DNA from: Halohasta litorea
Lineage (GTDB): Archaea > Halobacteriota > Halobacteria > Halobacteriales > Haloferacaceae
Reading direction: 5' to 3'
Length of the DNA: 64,000 nucleotides
Assembly: GCF_024494645.1 (NCBI RefSeq)
Contig: NZ_JANHDJ010000006.1
Span: 186,001 to 250,000 of the forward strand
Part shown: piece after piece, positions 6,733 to 23,783 of the stretch
Numbering within the stretch: the first letter of the stretch is position 1
How the letters are laid out: each line of letters opens with the position of its first letter
The notes under the pieces: generated by a model
The model's input: only the letters and a program-made list of their open reading frames with translations
What the model was told of the DNA's origin: nothing
Database searches by the model: none
Program-made: the position numbers and the translations under genes

Positions 6733-9700
6733 CAGACCGTCACCTCCGAACTCGCCCGAATCGGGCCACGACCCTCGACCCGGACGTCGATGTTGCCCGC
6801 ATCGAGGTCATTATCGAGGCCAGCGAGGAGGTCATCGCCCGCGTCGGTGATCGGTTCGGGCTCGTCGAACTGGAAGCGGAACTGGATTGTTTCTCGATCA
6901 TCGCCGAACGAGCCGGGCTGGTCGATCACGTCCCGGAATCGGCTCGGTGACCCTGTGAATTCGGCGCTGTACGTTCCGTCGTCAGTCCGGGTTTCGTACT
7001 CCATTCGAACCGTCACCGCGTCTTCACGGGCTTTGAATCCAGGGCGCTGACTGACGAACTTGGCCGCCTGGAAGGGATCATCCCCGCCGACCTGGATAGT
7101 CACCTCTTCAAGTAGTGGCGTCCGGTCCGTCCCGGCCTTCGATTCCGCATCACGCCGGACTTCCGAGAACGCCCGTGAGGCAGACATCATCTTCTTGCTC
7201 GCGTCCCAGGACTCGTCGGGCTGGCACTCCTGGCAGCGACCGCGTTCGTCCAGCAACTGCTCGCTAGCGACCTCTTTGCCGCAGGAACTACAGGTCGTAT
7301 CAGACTGGTGTTCCTCACAGTAGTGGGGTTCGGTACCTTCTGGGTTTTCAATCTCCGTCCCACATTCAGCACAGGTAGCGACCGTCTGTTCTGGTCGGTC
7401 GATTTCGTCGAGATGGTCGTCGACAAGCGCGTCGATATCTCGGTAGACGACGAAGGCACTCCCGATCTGGACGTTGCTGTCCCGAATCGATGTCTCAACA
7501 TCGGGGGAATCCACGAACGGTTCGGGGTGTGGCCACGCCTTAGGCTCTGTTGTCCCGGCCCAGTACGCAGTTCCGGACTCGCCATCCCAATAGGCGTACC
7601 CGTGATCACTAACGAGGGTGGAGACAGTCTCGCGAATCGGTTTCGTGCTGAAGAGGTAGTCCAGTCCGGGCTTCTTCGCGTACTGGTTGACCAGCGCGTC
7701 GGTGGACATAACGTCCTGAGTCTGTTGCCAGAGTTTCTGTTGAACGTGCGCGGATCCACGAGCACCGGCGTCGCGTTTCACGATCTTATCTTCGAGCGTT
7801 GTCTGAACAGCATCGACCAACGTCGTCCCGCCGTTAGATTCGGTCGCGCCGATGGTGATGTGAGTTAGCCCGTTCCGGTCTGGGTAGTAGAGGTGACGAT
7901 AGACGTTCCGTACGAGCTCCCCAAGCATCAGCTGTGCCTCGTCGCTTCGCTCTCGGAGCTCCTCGATTTGCTCCGACGAGAGGTCGGCCTTCTGCTCAGG
8001 ACTATCAAGTAAGGCCTCAATTGCTTCGAGACGCCGAGCCTCATCGATCGCTGCATCCATCCGGTCAGCGTCAGGAGCGAGGAACAGGGCGTAGTTTTTG
8101 TAGATACGCGTCTCTGTCTCCCCCTCGTGTTTCGCGGCTTGCTGCTCGTAAAGCTGGGTCACACGGCTTGGCGGCGTATCACCACCATCCTCGACAGCAG
8201 CGGTGTCCGGATGCATAACCGCGAGTTTCGGTGTGTCGGGTGTATCAGGTAAGTCCGCCGGCGATTCGGGGAACACGACTGGCTGGAAGCCACCGTCCCC
8301 AATCTCCTTCGAAGTGAGACGGTTCTCGAAACGCGAATGTGCGGTCGCTTCTGGAGTGGACTCTATCCGCTGATCGATGATTCGAATCAGGTTTGGTTCT
8401 TGCTTGAACCGGATTCGCTCTTCCTCGTAGAGGAAATAACACGCGACGTCCATGTCGTCGCCCCGGAGCGCAGATAGTGCGGCATCGTAGTCGTCGAAGT
8501 TCAGGTCCGGGTGGCCGATGGCGAGGTTCAAGTCGGCGTGTGTCAGGCCGGCTGCCTGCTCACCATACGCGAGACTGTGCCAGAGAACCGTCGTTGTCAG
8601 GTGAGTGCCGAGCGGTGGAAGACCGTTTTCGGTCCATTTGCGGTCCTCAAGTTGGGCGTGAGCAGTCCCGTCATCGTCGTAGATGTCGGCAGTGACTGCA
8701 GGGCCAAGATCGACAAAGTCAAAGAGCCGCTCACGAAGAATCGTCTGAACCCCACCACCGGGATCGTCATCGGCGACTGTAAGGTCGTAAATCCGAATCC
8801 AGTGACGGTCATAACTCTCCGGTTGGTGATTCCAGAGATAGTAGACAGCTCGCGCAAGCAAGCGGAGGGCATCACGAGTACGCTGAAACCGGGGGATTGT
8901 ATCGATCTTGTCCGTGAGCGCATTAATCAGTGAGGGGTGGAAGGGGTACTCACGTGCAAGGACATCTACGTAGCCGGCGTCAGTTGCTTCCTGTGGATAT
9001 TGACGATCTTCCTGGTCGTAGAACTGGAAGTAGGTGTCAGCGGCTTCACGAGAAGTATCGTCTGGAACCTCAGTAAACAGCCGGTGTTGTAGCACTTTAC
9101 CGATCTCATTTTCACCCGTGGGGGTGATTGTCTTGTGTTGTCGGCGACCAATCTCGTTGACCTCCTCGATGTGGTCATTAACGCTGTCCCGAACCCGGTC
9201 GGCCTGCTCGCCGAATGCTGTATCTGCGATAGAGTAGACGACCGTCACGTTATCCGATTCGGAAGCTGCTTCAAGCAGCGCCATCACAAACGAAAGCGTC
9301 TGATCGGCAAGCGTTTTATCGCCGACAGGCATGCCGGCGGCCTTGTTCATGTAGTCAGCAATCTCGTCGATCAGGATCAGCGCCGGCTGGTCATATTGAG
9401 CGAAGAGCTTTGAAAGAGTACCTTCACCAGGAGCAGCCTGGTCTTGATCGTAGTCTTTGACAAACTCGTAGCCATCAAGACCGTAGAGCTGGTAGGCCAG
9501 TTCGCCCCACATTGTACGGGTGTTTGGAGCATTCGGATCGTCGTCAGCGTGGCGAGCATCTTTGCTGTCGGCTTTCGTCCCGATGAAAACGCCGGTCGCA
9601 ATATCGAGATTATCAGCAACTGCGTCCTGGTAGTTGGACGCAAGTGTATCGTCGCCATCCAAAAGATAGTGTGAGAGATTCTTGATCGTGCTCGGGTTTT

Positions 9701-16055: not shown

Positions 16056-17282
16056 ATGCTTAGTGACTCAGGAGCTGGGGGCAGCCTTGACGAGACGTTC
16101 ACTCGCTACTTTCAGGATATCGGGAAGGGTCGAGGCAGCAGCGGGGGCCACTACCGGCGAAACAGCAAGCGAGAGTTAGAACGGTTCGTTGAGTGGGCAG
16201 CTGGCGAGCGAGGCCCCGACGAGTGGACCGGGATTGTCCCCGACGACGCCGATCGCGACCCGAAGTTCGACGACCTCTCCGAAAGCGTGTTTCGCGAGTA
16301 CGCCCGTCACTTAACGAGTGACCGGGGTCTCAAGCAAAACACTGTCCAGACCTACTACGCTTACCTCTCAGCGTGGTGTGGTTGGTGCGTCACCGAAGGA
16401 TACCTCGATACGCACTTCGCGCAGCGGGCGAGCGCGACAGCCCCCTTGCCCGATGACGACGGCCGGAGACCCGGTGATCAACAAGCGTGGACATCCGACC
16501 AGCGACACACCCTCACCCAGTACGTCGACGACGCCGCCTATGAGGCGAGTGAGAGGCTTTCAGAAGTCCCAGCCGATGATCCCGATGCGAAAGCTCGCGC
16601 CCGCTACAAAGCTCTTCGAGCAGCTCGCGATCGCGCACTTGTCTATCTCGTCGCCTACACGGCAATTCGCATTGGTGAGTTAGTCCGTGATGGGAGCGAC
16701 CCCCGCCGTCGAGGAGTCCGCTGGGAGGACGTTAGCCTCAGCGACGGGAGTATCGACGTCTACCGGAAGAAGCAGTCATGGGACAGCGCGAGCCTCCCAG
16801 ATCCCGTAATCGAACCACTACGCCTCTACAAACGGCGTCTCGATCCTCCCTCTGACCAGTGGGCGGTGTTTCCAACCCTCCACTTCGCGACTGTCTCGAA
16901 GCAGGTCAAAGAGGAATTGGCGAATAGAGGGCTCGACGAGGAGGAAATCTCCACTCTCCGTGAGGACAGTGACTACGATATCTTCCTCGCACTCTCAAAG
17001 AACATCCGCGTCCCCTCGATCACGACAGACGGCGCTCGCGGTACGCTGAAACGGATCACTGAGGACAGCGACGTGGACGTCGAGCATTCAAAACACGAGT
17101 ATCTCGCGCCACACGGGGGACGTCGGGGGATGGGAGAAGTCCTAGTGCGAGCATTCGGCTACACGGTCGCTGCTCGATATCTAGACAACTCCGAGGAGAT
17201 GGTTCGGAAACGGTACTCGCACATCGAAGCAGGCGAGCTCGGCGATGCCGCTGCCGAGGCGATCGAAGACATCGACGGATAG
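16056..17282 (+). CDS. Tyrosine recombinase/integrase
   Basis: 408 residues of the phage-integrase fold. An N-terminal SAM-like core-binding region (about 10-125) includes LKQNTVQTYYAYLSAW. The catalytic domain has Arg I in AYTAIRIGELVRD (near 205), the H-x-x-R box HGGRRGM (about 352-358) and the nucleophile Tyr in RKRYSHIEAGEL (near 386). The set is complete, so it should be active in DNA strand exchange. It may integrate the element, resolve dimers, or belong to the accessory island. No adjacent tRNA gene or att core is visible. Confidence 0.88.
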   Translation: MLSDSGAGGSLDETFTRYFQDIGKGRGSSGGHYRRNSKRELERFVEWAAGERGPDEWTGIVPDDADRDPKFDDLSESVFREYARHLTSDRGLKQNTVQTYYAYLSAWCGWCVTEGYLDTHFAQRASATAPLPDDDGRRPGDQQAWTSDQRHTLTQYVDDAAYEASERLSEVPADDPDAKARARYKALRAARDRALVYLVAYTAIRIGELVRDGSDPRRRGVRWEDVSLSDGSIDVYRKKQSWDSASLPDPVIEPLRLYKRRLDPPSDQWAVFPTLHFATVSKQVKEELANRGLDEEEISTLREDSDYDIFLALSKNIRVPSITTDGARGTLKRITEDSDVDVEHSKHEYLAPHGGRRGMGEVLVRAFGYTVAARYLDNSEEMVRKRYSHIEAGELGDAAAEAIEDIDG

Positions 17283-17357
17283 CTGGATTCGATAGCTCAT
17301 AAGTACAGCCCGCATTTCCATATTAACTTTATATAGTAGTGAGCCGTAGCATGGCAC

Positions 17358-18053
17358 ATGAGCCATGAGACGGAATCGAGCCCCGAACAGGGTGTGTCCA
17401 TATCCGTTCCAATACCCGCCTCAGACGCGGATTTATTCAAAAGCAAGGCAACGGACGACATCTTGCTATTTTTAACGAACCACCGATTCAAGCAGTTCTC
17501 ACAGCGCGAGGTGGCTGACCAGATTGGCCATTCCCAACAGACAGTTCGGAGAGCGGTCAACACCCTCGTCAAGAACGGATTAGTGGTTGAACATCCTGAT
17601 AACAACCAGCGGCTCGTTCAGATCAACCGAGAGCGACTTGCTGTGCCGGACGACCCGCTCCTCCGAATACCGCAACCAGAGTTCCAGAAGCCCGTGAAGG
17701 CCGCCGTCGACGAACTCACTGACCGTCTCAACGGCGTCATCGGGATCGTCCTGTACGGAAGCGTGGCGCGTGGCGAAGCCGATCGGCGTAGCGACATCGA
17801 CCTCTGGGTGCTCACCACGAACGAACGAGCCCCAAACCAGCGGGAGGCGAACGCTGTTGGTCGCGACCTCGAAGACGCCGAGTTCGACGGCAACAGGTAT
17901 GCGTACGACATCGACGTTGAAGCGGTCCAAGCGATTCCCACGTATACCGACGACATCCGGGAAATTGTCGTTTCAGGTATCCCGATCTACAGCACTAACC
18001 AGTTTGAGACGGTCGAAAAGCTCCTTCTCGAGGAGGGTGGTAGCGATGAGTGA
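17358..18053 (+). CDS. Nucleotidyltransferase (MNT type) fused to a winged-helix domain
   Basis: 231 residues. An N-terminal winged helix at about 28-85 includes FSQREVADQIGHSQQTVRRA. A DNA-polymerase-beta-type minimal nucleotidyltransferase follows with GSVARGEADRRSDIDLWV, giving the GSxxRG...DxD signature near 135-152. MNT proteins paired with HEPN proteins commonly act as antitoxins, some by adding nucleotides to the HEPN toxin. Its end overlaps the next gene by 8 nt. A TATA (CTTTATATAG near 17330) precedes the ATG by about 28 nt. The fused wHTH would allow operon autoregulation. Confidence 0.82.
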   Translation: MSHETESSPEQGVSISVPIPASDADLFKSKATDDILLFLTNHRFKQFSQREVADQIGHSQQTVRRAVNTLVKNGLVVEHPDNNQRLVQINRERLAVPDDPLLRIPQPEFQKPVKAAVDELTDRLNGVIGIVLYGSVARGEADRRSDIDLWVLTTNERAPNQREANAVGRDLEDAEFDGNRYAYDIDVEAVQAIPTYTDDIREIVVSGIPIYSTNQFETVEKLLLEEGGSDE

Positions 18054-18555
18054 GCGGTCTGACCCAGGTGACATCCTCGATGCCCTAGAACGGGCACAAG
18101 ACGCCTTCGAGCTGATAGGCCGTGGTCGAGCAGAGTTCGAGGACGGGATTAGTGCCGACGAGGACTGGAAGACCCAGCTGACGAAAGCGTGCCGGCTTAT
18201 TGAGGTGACAAACACCCTTCAGACGGAGGGAGACTACTACACAGCGATCATCGAGGTGAGCTTTGGAACCATAGAGAGATCCATCGAAGCGTACGCGCTC
18301 GCGATGTCGGACGATGATCTTGAGGACTTCCAAGATCACGAGTTCAGCTACAGACGCGCACACGAGATTGGTCTGTTCACCCAAGAAACGGCAGAAGACA
18401 TGGAGGATCTGTATAGCGATAACCGAACAGAGAGCTACTACGGAGGCGGGAGACCGACAGAAGAGCAGGCAGACGCAATGGCCGAACTTGCTCTCGCAGT
18501 CCACGAATTCAGTGTGAACCAGATTCGGGAAGGGGGAGTCTGTCTCTGTAACTGA
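18046..18555 (+). CDS. HEPN-like helical protein, probable partner of the MNT protein
   Basis: 169 residues, almost entirely helical and acidic, encoded with an 8-nt overlap after the nucleotidyltransferase gene. The segment YSDNRTESYYGGGRPTEEQ near 120-138 resembles the arginine-plus-tyrosine motif of HEPN proteins from archaeal MNT/HEPN pairs, and the gene order fits. A canonical RxxxxH is not evident, so RNase activity is uncertain. The HEPN call rests on context and helical pattern. Confidence 0.6.
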   Translation: MSERSDPGDILDALERAQDAFELIGRGRAEFEDGISADEDWKTQLTKACRLIEVTNTLQTEGDYYTAIIEVSFGTIERSIEAYALAMSDDDLEDFQDHEFSYRRAHEIGLFTQETAEDMEDLYSDNRTESYYGGGRPTEEQADAMAELALAVHEFSVNQIREGGVCLCN

Positions 18556-18645: not shown

Positions 18646-18668
18646 GTGAGTCCAGAGTGAGTATTAGT

Positions 18669-20075
18669 ATGAGTGGTGTTAGAGACGTATTCGATGAACT
18701 CAACACGGAAATCCCCTTCAGTGAGTTCGAGGAACTGGTCGAGAATAAGGTAGACGAAATGAGCGGCCTCGTCGACGAACACGCCGCCGCCATCCTCGTC
18801 TCTCAGGACTTCGATCAGGGGAAAGTCGAGAGCATCGAGAACCTCACGACGGCGATGGACAGCGCCGAATTCACGGCGAAGGTCACATCAGTCGGCCAGC
18901 TCCGGACCTTCGAGCGAGAAGACGAAGACGGGGAATCTTCCCAGGGACAGGTCTGTAACGTTGAGGTTGGAGACGAGACCGGGCACGTCACGCTCGCGTT
19001 GTGGGACGGGATGGCCAAGGCAGCAGCGCAGAACCTCGAGGCCGGCGAAGTCCTCGAAGTCAAAGGATACCCGAAGGACGGCTATCGTGGTCTCGAAGTC
19101 AGCGTGAAAGATATCGAGCGAGTGTCCGATGACGGGATCGACATTCGGACGTTCGACACCTACCAGATCGACGATCTCCACACCGACCTCTCCGGCATCG
19201 ACGTGACGGGACTGCTCCTCGACACCACTCCTCTGAAGACCTTCGACCGCGACGATGGATCGACTGGTCAGGTCGCAAACCTCATCCTCGGAGACGAGAC
19301 CGGGCGCATCCAAGTCGCACTGTGGGACGACAAAGCAGAGGTCGTCGACGATTTCGAGATCAGCGAAGCGGTCAAAGTCTCCAACGTGAACGTTCGCGAG
19401 CGAGATGAGAAGCTCGAACTCCATGCCGGGAGCTGGTCTACCGTTGAAGAGGTAGACGAGATCATCGAGTACCGCCCGAACACGACCGACATCAAGAACA
19501 TCGACGACGGGGTTGTGACGATCGCTGGGGCCGTCAGCGATGCTTACGACAAGGACAGCTTCACTCGCGACGATGGATCGGAGGGCTCGGTCCGCAACAT
19601 CGTCGTCGAGGACGGCACCGGGTCGCTCCGGGTCGCTCTCTGGGGCGACAAGGCTGACAGAGATATCGAACACGGGGACGAACTGCTCTTAGCCGACCTC
19701 TCGATTCAGGAAGGGTTCGAAGGCGGCACCGAGGGATCGGCCAACTGGAACTCCAGTATCACCACCATCCGGAAGGCGGCCGACGTCCCGAAACGAGAAA
19801 CTGAGGCACCGACGGAGAAGAACTCCCAGGCCACCGGCCTCAACGAGTACGACAACGATGAGTCGGCAGCAGACGATCACGACGAAGACACGGACGAAGA
19901 CGGGGAGACGATCGAAGTCACCGGGACCATACTCGGAACCGGGGAAACTGCCACCCTCGAAGCCAACGACGAGCAGCACACTGTCGTGACTGATGAGGAC
20001 CTCCGACTCGGTCAACAAGTCACCGTACGGGGCGCGGTCAAAGATGGAGAGCTCCACGCCGAAGAGATATTCTAG
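18669..20075 (+). CDS. Replication protein A-like single-stranded DNA-binding protein
   Basis: 468 residues from the ATG at 18669; a GTG at 18657 would add four. At least three tandem OB folds are visible as repeats of a pattern such as GQVCNVEVGDETGHVTLALW, GQVANLILGDETGRIQVALW and GSVRNIVVEDGTGSLRVALW (near 100, 200 and 305). An acidic linker (about 385-420) and a small C-terminal OB-like segment follow. There is no zinc finger. The protein should coat ssDNA during replication and repair. It lies immediately before the origin repeats and orc1/cdc6, forming a replication module. Confidence 0.9.
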   Translation: MSGVRDVFDELNTEIPFSEFEELVENKVDEMSGLVDEHAAAILVSQDFDQGKVESIENLTTAMDSAEFTAKVTSVGQLRTFEREDEDGESSQGQVCNVEVGDETGHVTLALWDGMAKAAAQNLEAGEVLEVKGYPKDGYRGLEVSVKDIERVSDDGIDIRTFDTYQIDDLHTDLSGIDVTGLLLDTTPLKTFDRDDGSTGQVANLILGDETGRIQVALWDDKAEVVDDFEISEAVKVSNVNVRERDEKLELHAGSWSTVEEVDEIIEYRPNTTDIKNIDDGVVTIAGAVSDAYDKDSFTRDDGSEGSVRNIVVEDGTGSLRVALWGDKADRDIEHGDELLLADLSIQEGFEGGTEGSANWNSSITTIRKAADVPKRETEAPTEKNSQATGLNEYDNDESAADDHDEDTDEDGETIEVTGTILGTGETATLEANDEQHTVVTDEDLRLGQQVTVRGAVKDGELHAEEIF

Positions 20076-20104: not shown

Positions 20105-20505
20105 ACACACCGATTTTCCAGTGTTCTCCCCTGTGTCCATTATTCACAGACCCCCCACACCGTTTTTCCAGTGTTCTTTGCTTCTCGACACACCGTTTTT
20201 CCAGTGTTTATCGTGTCAACGGGTCACAGAGCAACCACACCGTTTTTCCAGTGTTCTTTCCCACGTCCATTATTCACGGGCCCCCCCCACACCGTTTTTC
20301 CAGTGTTCTTTTCCACATCCATTATTCACGGACCCCCTCCCCAGATTTCGTCTGTTCTTCAAGCCATCCATTATTCATTGACCCCCACACCGTTTTTCCA
20401 GTGTTCTTTTCCACAATTCAGCTAATACAGCCTCTATAGAGGCAGACTCCGATCTACGCCCCGATTCCACCTGGTGATAGGGACACACCGTTTTTCCAGT
20501 GTTCT
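20105..20505 (+). repeat. Origin repeats (ORB-like iterons) upstream of orc1/cdc6
   Basis: Core CACCGTTTTTCCAGTGTTCT occurs at 20158, 20238, 20290, 20388 and 20486 (each start plus 19), with variant copies at 20108 and 20191, all in one orientation. TTCCAGTG is the core of haloarchaeal origin recognition boxes. A second motif, TCCATTATTCAC, recurs between several copies (20136, 20266, 20318, and 20367 with one change). The 400-bp stretch carries no credible gene; the frames through it are repeat artefacts. Confidence 0.9.
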
Positions 20506-20660
20506 CAACGAATCCATTGTACTACCCACCTCTATGCCACGACCCATTCTCGTCGTGAGTGATTGATGTATCTCAACTGTCTCTCAGAACGTTCCACCAA
20601 GCACATGAAACGTGGGAAACAGTGGAAACTACTAAGTCGAGTGGGGTTGACGAATCTCGC

Positions 20661-21992
20661 ATGACCGATTCCGTATTCGACTCGAAATCAGAAATCATCG
20701 AGAACGCGGAGGTGTTCGAGGAGGATTATACGCCGGACGAGATTCTCTGTCGGGACGAGATGATGAATGAGTACGTGAAGGTGCTCAGGCCCATCTACAA
20801 AGGTCGCCCTCCGAAGAACGCCTTTCTCTACGGTGACACGGGTGTCGGTAAGACGGCAGTGACTAAGCGGCTCACCGACCAGCTCATTTCAGACATCAAA
20901 GAGCAGAAGGACGACCACACTCTCGTCGCGAACGAATTCTCAATTGTAAGCGACACGGTTGTTCTCCCCCACGAGGTCACCGAAGACGACGACGTCGACC
21001 TCACCATCATCCAGTTAAACTGCCAGAATCTGCCAACGAAGAGCGACACCAATTCCTCCTATCAGGTCGCGATCGCGATGGTGAACGAGATGAGGCATCA
21101 GGAAGATAAGATCGCCACAACGGGATACGCCCCACAGGCGGTCTACAATATGCTCTATGAGGAGATCGACCGTGTTGGCGGGACGTTCCTCGTCATCCTT
21201 GACGAGGTTGACGCCATCGGTAGTGATGATACCATACTCTATGAGCTGCCCCGGTCCCGTTCAAATGGAGACATCCACAACGCCCGGATAGGCGTGATCG
21301 GGATCAGCAACGACTACACGTTTCGGAAAAACCTCTCTCCGAAGGTTCAGGACACGCTGTGCGAACGCGAAATCAGATTCCCGGCATACGAGGCCCAAGA
21401 GTTGGGGGATATTCTCGCGGCCAGATGTGAGGTGGGGCTTGTCGATGGATCGTATTCTGAAGAGAACCTCAGGCTAGCCTCTGCTTTAGCCCGTCGTGAT
21501 TCCTCTGGGAGTGCCCGGAAAGCAATCGATATCATAAAACGAGCCGCCGAGATCGCCGAGGACGAAGGAGCGACAGAGCTCAAAGACACATACATTCGCG
21601 AGGCGCATGAAGACCTCCAGCAGGGCGACATGGTGTCTTCAATCACTCATCAGGACAACCACAAGCTGATCGCCCTCGGCGCACTAGCCGAAGCGGAACG
21701 TCTCGGTCAGACGCCGATCCGAACCAAAACATTCCACGAAGCGTATCAGAAATTCGCGGAAGGGACGAACACAGAGCCATTGACGCTGCGTGGGTTCCAT
21801 AACCATCTAAGCCGGCTCAGCATGTTCGGGTTCGTTGAGGAGCTCACGAATAATGAGGGGAGGAAAGGGGGCCGGTATAATGAGTACCAGTTCTCTGAGG
21901 ATCTGTCTAAAGAGACCGTGAAAGAGGCGTTTGACACGATGAACGACATCAACTGGGTCACGATTCGTATTAGACCAGGCGCGGAGGGGTAA
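20661..21992 (+). CDS. Orc1/Cdc6-family replication initiator
   Basis: 443 residues from the ATG at 20661. AAA+ ATPase: Walker A FLYGDTGVGKTAVTKRL near 53-69, Walker B FLVILDEVDAIG near 174-185, sensor 1 GVIGISNDYTF. The C-terminal winged helix (about 370-435) includes KTFHEAYQKFAEG and LRGFHNHLSRLSMFGFVEE. Archaeal Orc1/Cdc6 binds origin recognition boxes and recruits the MCM helicase. The gene is flanked on both sides by ORB-like repeats, so it almost certainly acts on this element's own origin. Longer in-frame starts exist but would read non-halophilic sequence. Confidence 0.93.
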   Translation: MTDSVFDSKSEIIENAEVFEEDYTPDEILCRDEMMNEYVKVLRPIYKGRPPKNAFLYGDTGVGKTAVTKRLTDQLISDIKEQKDDHTLVANEFSIVSDTVVLPHEVTEDDDVDLTIIQLNCQNLPTKSDTNSSYQVAIAMVNEMRHQEDKIATTGYAPQAVYNMLYEEIDRVGGTFLVILDEVDAIGSDDTILYELPRSRSNGDIHNARIGVIGISNDYTFRKNLSPKVQDTLCEREIRFPAYEAQELGDILAARCEVGLVDGSYSEENLRLASALARRDSSGSARKAIDIIKRAAEIAEDEGATELKDTYIREAHEDLQQGDMVSSITHQDNHKLIALGALAEAERLGQTPIRTKTFHEAYQKFAEGTNTEPLTLRGFHNHLSRLSMFGFVEELTNNEGRKGGRYNEYQFSEDLSKETVKEAFDTMNDINWVTIRIRPGAEG

Positions 21993-22000
21993 CCCTCCCC

Positions 22001-22502
22001 CTGCGGTTTTCCAGTGTTCTTCCTCGAGTTGACCGTACCACCGTCCAGTTCGGGGGCCGGTCACCCACACCCCCACACCGTTTTTCCAATGTTCTTCGCC
22101 GTATCGCGGTTTTCAGACGAGTTGAAGACACCCCGTCTCCTGTTATAAATAAGACGATCTTAAGGGAAATCTACGCAGACAATACCCGCTACGTCTGTCT
22201 ATCTCTCTATTATTATATTGCCTATACAATAAAATATATAATATAGTTATTGAGTGAGTGGCATACAGTAGAAGACACCCTTTGTTTGAGAACACTGGAA
22301 AAACGGTGTGGGAGGGTAATCGATACGACAGTGCTTCTGTCCTTGTGAGATCGGGATCAGACCACCGTTCGCTTCGTTTGGAGTGTCCACCCGATATCGT
22401 GAGAACACTGGAAAAACGGTGTGGGAGGGTAACCGACTAATCGAGGATAGCACTCGAAATACGGTGTGTACGGTGAGACAAGAACACTGGAAAAACGGTG
22501 TG
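22001..22502. other. Putative replication origin: inverted ORB-like repeats around an AT-rich stretch
   Basis: Forward repeats lie at 22001-22020 (variant) and 22076-22095 (one change). Inverted copies AGAACACTGGAAAAACGGTG lie at 22289-22308, 22402-22421 and 22481-22500, with a degraded copy near 22450. Between the two orientations, roughly 22140-22255, the sequence is very AT-rich (for example AATAAAATATATAATATAG), as expected for a DNA-unwinding element. Opposed ORBs flanking an AT-rich segment next to orc1/cdc6 is the classic haloarchaeal origin layout. No gene lies in this gap. Confidence 0.85.
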
Positions 22503-22538: not shown

Positions 22539-23783
22539 CTACGCGAAGGCCGTCGGGCCGCTCATCGCGACCGTCTCTTCCTCGCCGTCGTCCAGCTCCG
22601 CGTACGCATCGCGGAAGTCGCACATCTCCACGGTCTCACGGCCGTTGCGGATCGCGTTCATCCCGGCTTCCGTACAGACAGCCCGAATCTCCGCGCCAGT
22701 GATGGAGCCGACAGCCGTGGCGAGTTCGCCCGTGTCGACATCGTCGTCGACGTTCATGTCTCGCGTGTGGATATCGAAGATGTCCTCGCGGCCTTCTTCG
22801 CCGGCAGCCGGAACCTCCATCAGCCGGTCGAACCGACCGGGACGGAGGATCGCGTCGTCGAGCATGTCGAGACGGTTCGTCGCGGCGATGATCCGGACAT
22901 CACCGCGGTCATCGAACCCGTCCAACTCCGCGAGCAGCTGCATGAGCGTCCGCTGGACTTCCGCATCGCCCGACGTCTTCGAGTCCGTCCGCTTGGAGGC
23001 GATCGCGTCGATCTCGTCGATGAACAGCACCGACGGTCCGTTCTCTCGCGCAACCTCGAAGAGGTCGCGGACGAGTTTGGAGCCCTCGCCGATGAACTTG
23101 TGGACGAGTTCGGAGGCAGCCATCCGGATGAACGTCGCGTCGGTCTCGTTGGCGACCGCCTTCGCGAGCATCGTCTTCCCCGTCCCCGGCGGACCGTGGA
23201 GAAGCACGCCACTCGGCGGGTCGATCCCGACCGAGTCGAACACCTCCGGACTCTCCAACGGCATCTCGATGGTTTCGCGGACCTCTTCGATCTGGTCGTC
23301 GATACCGCCGATGTCCGTGTAGGACACACTCGGAGATTCCTCGACCTGCATCGCCTGTGCGCGGGCGTCGGTCTCTTTGTCCAACTTCCCAGTCACTGCG
23401 AGGTTGTTGTTCACCGTCACCCGGTCGCCGGCCTCGAGATCCTCCAGCATCTCCTCGGTCACGTCCGTGAGGGCTTCCTGGTTGTTCCCGTGCTGCTTGA
23501 CAATCACCTCATCTTCGGTGAGTTCCTGAACCGTCGCGATGAACAGCGGCGACTTCTTGAGCTTCGTATTCTCGCGCGTCACTCGGTCGAGCTGCTGTTC
23601 GGCCCGGTTCTTCTCAGCGGCCGCGTCCAGGAGCTTGTTCTCCATCTCCCGGTTCTGGGTTTCTAGGACCTCGACGCGCTCGCGAAGGTCTTCGGCCGTC
23701 TCTTCTTCCGTGTGGTCGGGGCCTGGCATGTCGCTGCGGTCGGTGGTTTCTGTCATCACTCCGTCCTCAGATGGTATCTCCAT
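22539..23783 (-). CDS. pan: Proteasome-activating nucleotidase (PAN)
   Basis: 414 residues with full PAN architecture: N-terminal coiled coil (about 25-78), OB domain (about 80-145), AAA+ domain with Walker A GPPGTGKTMLAKAVANETDA (near 194), Walker B VLFIDEIDAIASKR and arginine finger LRPGRFDR. PAN hexamers unfold proteins and feed them to the 20S proteasome. The C-terminus ends TAFA, where PANs normally carry a hydrophobic-Tyr-X docking tail; here Phe replaces Tyr, so gate opening may be altered. It is transcribed toward the origin, away from the gene at 23861. Presence on an accessory replicon is unusual. Confidence 0.93.
   Translation of the reverse strand: MEIPSEDGVMTETTDRSDMPGPDHTEEETAEDLRERVEVLETQNREMENKLLDAAAEKNRAEQQLDRVTRENTKLKKSPLFIATVQELTEDEVIVKQHGNNQEALTDVTEEMLEDLEAGDRVTVNNNLAVTGKLDKETDARAQAMQVEESPSVSYTDIGGIDDQIEEVRETIEMPLESPEVFDSVGIDPPSGVLLHGPPGTGKTMLAKAVANETDATFIRMAASELVHKFIGEGSKLVRDLFEVARENGPSVLFIDEIDAIASKRTDSKTSGDAEVQRTLMQLLAELDGFDDRGDVRIIAATNRLDMLDDAILRPGRFDRLMEVPAAGEEGREDIFDIHTRDMNVDDDVDTGELATAVGSITGAEIRAVCTEAGMNAIRNGRETVEMCDFRDAYAELDDGEEETVAMSGPTAFA

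Follow-up and report, generated by a model that had tools for sequence, protein, structure and literature searches.

The plasmid contig C31 of Halohasta litorea carries two orc1/cdc6 genes, orcA and orcB, each of which is accompanied, on the side opposite its own duplex unwinding element (DUE), by an array in which two kinds of boxes (A and B) alternate. The preferred reading of this arrangement, held with a probability of about 0.55, is that the locus at orcA (oriA) is an OrcA-dependent origin with a two-initiator regulatory array that would couple it to a second origin (oriB) 25 kb away. oriA itself belongs to the known haloarchaeal ori-orc1/cdc6 type; the novelty lies in the mixed A/B arrays.

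The window, i.e. the whole stretch of 64,000 nucleotides that was analyzed, corresponds to C31 positions 186001-250000 in a genome of 3.81 Mb distributed over 34 contigs. C31 comprises 296,994 bases, and its first 120 bases are repeated at position 296,868 near the end (an overlap of 127 bases); the replicon is therefore circular, and C31 is a plasmid of 296,867 bp. A near-identical plasmid is present in Halorubrum laminariae R60 (scaffold NZ_JANHDL010000004), a strain assigned to a different genus from the C31 host in the genome set. The whole H. litorea genome contains about fifteen orc genes that pass the family cut-off. The cumulative GC skew of C31 declines along most of its length, the sole rise being at approximately C31:186-204 kb, between oriB at 182.7 kb and oriA at 208.2 kb. 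oriA is flanked by a gene for an RPA-like single-stranded DNA binding protein (18657-20075, + strand) and by one for a plasmid-borne proteasome-activating nucleotidase (Pan1-like; 22539-23783, - strand). Window positions 16056-18555 harbor a tyrosine-recombinase-like gene, followed by genes for an MNT-type nucleotidyltransferase (MntA antitoxin-like) and a 261-aa ORF product without Pfam match, the latter two possibly forming a toxin-antitoxin pair. A thymidylate synthase gene is also carried on the plasmid (window 27318-28355, - strand).

The orcA product is full-length, with AAA+, lid, and winged-helix domains (TIGR02928, Cdc6_lid, and Cdc6_C above the cut-off), and the alignment with its homologue from plasmid pR1SE2 begins near the ATG at 20661. 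A boxes were searched in the whole window as CACCGTTTTTCCAGTGTTCT with up to three mismatches, with 100 dinucleotide shuffles as control. Twelve matches were obtained, every one within 20108-22500, and none of the 100 shuffles contained a match. The nine left boxes point one way and the four right boxes the other, facing a region of 70-84% AT, and most A boxes show the halophile-specific G-string at the end of the origin recognition box (ORB), as CCCCCACACCG or CGGTGTGGGGG. An earlier, sequence-only reading had listed at least five near-perfect and two variant boxes ahead of the initiator gene as well as two forward and three inverted boxes behind it. All of these were recovered: five exact and two variant boxes (one and two mismatches) precede the gene, the three inverted boxes behind it are exact, and one degenerate inverted box comes in addition (Table 1).

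Table 1. Boxes, initiator genes, and candidate DUE at the orcA locus, with orcB for comparison (window positions unless marked C31).
Feature	Position	Strand	Remarks
A box	20106..20127	+	1 mismatch (CACCGTTTTTCCAGTGTTCT match starts 20108)
B box	20136..20155	+	TCCATTATTCACAGACCCCC; abuts following A box
A box	20156..20177	+	exact (CACCGTTTTTCCAGTGTTCT match starts 20158)
A box	20189..20210	+	2 mismatches (CACCGTTTTTCCAGTGTTCT match starts 20191)
A box	20236..20257	+	exact (CACCGTTTTTCCAGTGTTCT match starts 20238)
B box	20266..20285	+	2 mismatches
A box	20288..20309	+	exact (CACCGTTTTTCCAGTGTTCT match starts 20290)
B box	20318..20337	+	1 mismatch
Decayed A box, in register	20337..20358	+	CTCCCCAGATTTCGTCTGTTCT
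B box	20367..20386	+	exact; last C is first base of following A box
A box	20386..20407	+	exact (CACCGTTTTTCCAGTGTTCT match starts 20388)
A box	20484..20505	+	exact (CACCGTTTTTCCAGTGTTCT match starts 20486)
orcA	20661..21992	+	443-aa Orc1/Cdc6-family replication initiator; TIGR02928 1e-104, Cdc6_C 8e-16, Cdc6_lid 1e-15
Variant A box just past orcA stop codon	21999..22020	+	3 mismatches (CACCGTTTTTCCAGTGTTCT match starts 22001)
A box, left flank of candidate melting region	22074..22095	+	1 mismatch (CACCGTTTTTCCAGTGTTCT match starts 22076)
AT-rich stretch, candidate DUE	22141..22255		70% AT; conserved core TATTGCCTATACAATAAAATATATAATATAGT at 22216-22247
A box, inverted, right flank of candidate melting region	22289..22310	-	exact
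A box, inverted	22402..22423	-	exact
A box, inverted, degenerate	22447..22468	-	4 mismatches
A box, inverted	22481..22502	-	exact
orcB, second orc1/cdc6 gene	C31:180978-182288	-	OrcB 26% identical to OrcA

Inverted ORB-type repeats flank the AT-rich stretch at oriA, as in haloarchaeal ori-orc1/cdc6 pairs. The core of this stretch reaches 84% AT, compared to 43% for the window; as TTGCCTATACAATAAARTATATAATATAG, it can be recognized in pR1SE2, and two Halocatena plasmids have a less similar version. The earlier proposals of an origin at orc1/cdc6 and of a melting site at about 22140-22255 are well supported in silico, by the opposed boxes around the AT-rich stretch, by boxes of this type around the gene in relatives, and by the core conserved in relatives. 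In the whole genome, A boxes occur on C31 only. Five further copies lie on this contig outside the window, at 7711-7814 (three) and 17115-17184 (two), behind hypothetical genes, without B boxes and away from any orc gene; they are possibly remote titration sites.

The pairing of box and initiator was followed over 30 loci of one Orc subfamily (the window and 29 relatives) from many genera. Apart from the twin in H. laminariae R60, the Orc proteins nearest to OrcA among the plasmids and 197 relatives are 51-61% identical to it. Clade-specific variants of CACASCRGTTTKC...TGTT lie beside the gene at all 30 loci, in most cases as opposed sets with an AT-rich stretch between them. The suggested search for the box in replicons with close Orc homologues thus returned boxes of the same type around the gene in 29 relatives, which are 51-61% identical to OrcA. 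Box profile distance follows protein distance closely (Mantel r = 0.87, a value reached by none of 5000 permutations), a correlation that co-inheritance alone would also give since box and gene reside on linked DNA, and that demonstrates pairing but not binding. Many family members have a box within approximately 35 bp behind the stop codon, with a polarity opposite to that of the box at 21999..22020. Other orc loci of the H. litorea genome carry different boxes. The ORB sequence at OrcA loci is specific to the linked initiator family, and the earlier view of a box matched to this initiator is well supported in silico.

A second motif, B (TCCATTATTCAYNGNCCCCC), alternates with the A boxes in the array ahead of orcA and was overlooked in the first reading. 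Its description of the upstream array as a series of boxes holds for the A boxes, but the array does not consist of one box family, boxes of the second origin being interleaved. In the commonest A/B unit of 49-52 bp, an A box (22 bp) is followed after about 8 bp by a B box (20 bp), and the C-run of the latter adjoins or runs into the C-string of the next A box, leaving one C/G-string common to both. Searched in the whole genome with up to two mismatches, B is found on C31 only and in three clusters: four boxes in the array ahead of orcA, two inverted copies at 182560(-)/182912(+), and another four at 180796-180964. The idea that A and B belong to a genome-wide repeat was dropped, as both are confined to this contig. 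A virus origin of the boxes was likewise rejected, neither box pattern having an exact match in IMG/VR viral contigs.

The latter two B clusters bracket orcB. The inverted B boxes upstream of the gene enclose an AT-rich stretch, and the array behind orcB repeats the 50-bp unit, its B boxes alternating with three A boxes, of which two are exact and one has decayed. The sets flanking the DUEs are unmixed, oriA having A boxes and oriB having B boxes alone, and mixing is limited to the initiator-side arrays. In relatives of OrcB, two inverted boxes upstream of the gene are separated by about 300 bp, same-polarity boxes follow the gene, and every relative has a box sequence of its own. The OrcB locus matches this geometry, with the inverted pair around an AT-rich region and boxes behind the gene; the polarity of B is unusual, the strand with its C-run having G in the OrcB relatives. 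B is regarded, with moderate confidence, as the box of OrcB. The B element has an inner motif, AACCATANCCGC, in common with two OrcB relatives; matches of this kind number three in 140 kb of background. In the oriA DUE, GACAATACCCGC (window 22175-22192) resembles the AACCATANCCGC of the B element and of the origins of these two relatives. The DUE-internal motif AAYATANCCGC occurs in the DUE of oriA as well as in the B element and the two OrcB relatives and is absent from the OrcA relatives; GACAATACCCGC and AACCATANCCGC are perhaps versions of a common inner origin motif.

B is not confined to OrcB: five genomes that lack a close OrcB carry a solo B element. The element (C31:182540-182960 in this plasmid) is non-coding, spans about 440 bp, and consists of inverted B boxes around an AT-rich core. 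It is found once each in G222, G218, G239, G225, and G238, 78-91% identical and with no close OrcB adjacent, and the OrcB-like genes checked in these genomes have boxes that differ from B. The five copies are best described as putative solo origin-like elements. A search of phage and plasmid records returned no match to the B element.

The sharing of boxes between two initiator loci was surveyed over 257 same-genome pairs of orc loci, about 250 of them distinct when repeats are discounted and 21 of these on the same contig, within flanks of 1.5 kb, a range that farther arrays escape. Among the approximately 250 distinct pairs, repeated boxes common to both loci were found only for orcA/orcB of C31 and for its twin in H. 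laminariae R60.

According to the proposed mechanism, OrcA would bind the A boxes that face each other at 22.0-22.5 kb, opening the AT-rich stretch at 22.14-22.26 kb with its core at 22216-22247. The array ahead of orcA would serve as a regulatory array for OrcA and OrcB and not as a second origin. At the fused 50-bp unit, both proteins may compete or cooperate through the common C/G-string, which is likely because G-strings are essential for the oriC1 ORBs of H. hispanica (PMC3936714). Both initiators would be titrated by the arrays, and the array ahead of orcA might also adjust orcA expression, as its position allows feedback on orcA transcription. oriA and oriB would then each be set by the initiator of the other instead of being independent. 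The anatomy of the locus, the box sharing unique to this pair and its twin, and the pairing of box and initiator across the family are observed, and binding of OrcA and OrcB, melting, titration, and coupling are predicted here from box sequence and layout; titration or sensing of both initiators, with coupling of the two origins, is the most likely role of the mixed arrays. The more far-reaching model, a circuit within one replicon in which two unrelated Orc1/Cdc6 initiators cross-regulate genes and origins via fused heterotypic boxes with a common G-string, is offered tentatively and at somewhat less than even odds.

Fused units also occur outside C31. In G239, B-CCCCC-A units of the same spacing and diverged sequence lie upstream of cetZ, the product of which was confirmed to contain the CetZ_C and tubulin domains. 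G218, G234, and G222 have fused units upstream of apparently the same cetZ gene (judged by the first residues), and G215 has a comparable array with another sequence at the place where cetZ would start. In these five genomes, no best match to OrcA exceeds 47% identity. The composite unit thus predates the C31 plasmid and is not strictly tied to an initiator gene; in the sister plasmids it may either be used as an operator or be bound by another factor. The assumption that boxes go with initiators stands for the 30 loci with boxes beside an orc gene and fails for the five remote A boxes on C31 and the A/B units upstream of cetZ. Composite sites at L113:6551-6593, L115:8330-8400, and L118:7142-7260 are placed directly before a TATA-like stretch upstream of plasmid cetZ. 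CetZ was also considered as the partition gene of the plasmid itself and discarded, no cetZ-like gene being found on C31. Two sister contigs share with C31 a 1,250-residue protein and a small conserved protein, the C31 copy of which (290339-290671) is 73% identical to its sister-plasmid relative and gave no match in a Pfam search.

These units bear on the question of whether the initiators are the main ligands of the mixed arrays. The arrays might instead be operator- or centromere-like sites of another plasmid protein, e.g. the one encoded at C31:290339-290671. Such a role would suit the sister-plasmid A/B unit, which sits before cetZ just ahead of the TATA-like stretch and beside the small conserved protein in the absence of a close OrcA, and the C31 relative of this protein is 73% identical. 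That protein has no Pfam match, however, and its DNA binding is a guess; it does not neighbor the A/B array of G222 or that of G215. A-type boxes, moreover, accompany OrcA relatives at 30 loci of many genera, and the opposed box sets flank AT-rich regions in an ORB-like manner, which makes this explanation decidedly unlikely.

The alternative of an ordinary single origin with self-titration, in which the upstream A array would titrate OrcA alone and the B motifs would be functionless imports by recombination between origins, fares slightly better and is still rather unlikely. It conflicts with the decayed A half at 20337-20358, which adjoins a B box that stayed exact, with the retention of the fused unit at the same spacing in diverged plasmids and another gene context, and with the reciprocity of the mixed arrays, present at both initiators and absent from both DUE flanks. 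In its favor, an orc gene with boxes on either side is a common arrangement in haloarchaea (PMC3528665) and in the OrcA family, A/B tandem repeats could spread through recombination, and small differences between C31 and its twin in H. laminariae R60 indicate ongoing change. A third alternative, in which the active origin includes the upstream array at 20.1-20.5 kb and replication starts on both sides of orcA, is very improbable. The AT-rich origin region lies upstream of the gene in most relatives, as this would suggest, but it is downstream in the window and, together with the opposed set, in the closest relative pR1SE2, and the boxes ahead of orcA have a single polarity with no AT-rich stretch between opposed boxes.

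The mixed arrays bear on how archaeal replicons coordinate several origins. If the coupled reading is true, reciprocal two-initiator arrays would physically connect two origins of the same DNA molecule, and such coupling might explain the stable maintenance or incompatibility of large multi-orc haloarchaeal plasmids. Boxes on both sides of the gene, downstream origins, and linkage-specific boxes have already been published (PMC3528665); for interleaved two-initiator boxes linking two origins of one replicon, an incomplete literature search found no published description.

A near-identical counterpart is the twin plasmid of H. laminariae R60, with the same A/B layout at both origins, OrcA 99.8-100% and OrcB 100% identical, and a few base differences within the array. 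pR1SE2 of Halorubrum lacusprofundi (NZ_KX906370) encodes the closest OrcA listed in the plasmid collection (61%) and resembles oriA in its AT core and in the opposed boxes downstream of the gene, there CACACCRTTTTGCGAGTGTTAG; it differs in the box core, in having few box-like sites upstream of the gene, and in that no B-like boxes were found. Two ORB types beside one orc1/cdc6 gene, as at orcA, are also shown for Hlac_3512 (Halorubrum lacusprofundi) and HQ2959A (Haloquadratum walsbyi), where the two different ORB-like elements near one orc gene are assigned to distinct candidate origins (I and II) with an AT-rich region apiece, and the text describes neither interleaving nor a second box-owning initiator (PMC3528665, Figure 3). 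In H. hispanica, the ORB cluster oriC2D downstream of cdc6E, which could not be removed, restrains oriC2, probably via titration of Cdc6E, and the chromosomal origins oriC1 and oriC2 appeared to be independently controlled (PMC3936714). oriC2-cdc6E and oriA are alike in that the initiator gene separates the inverted ORBs with their AT-rich DUE from an ORB-rich array; at orcA, seven A boxes lie upstream and the DUE downstream, as for a titration array of the oriC2D type. oriC2D, however, contains the boxes of one initiator only, whereas the orcA array includes four interleaved B boxes of the second origin, an arrangement that recurs reciprocally at orcB.
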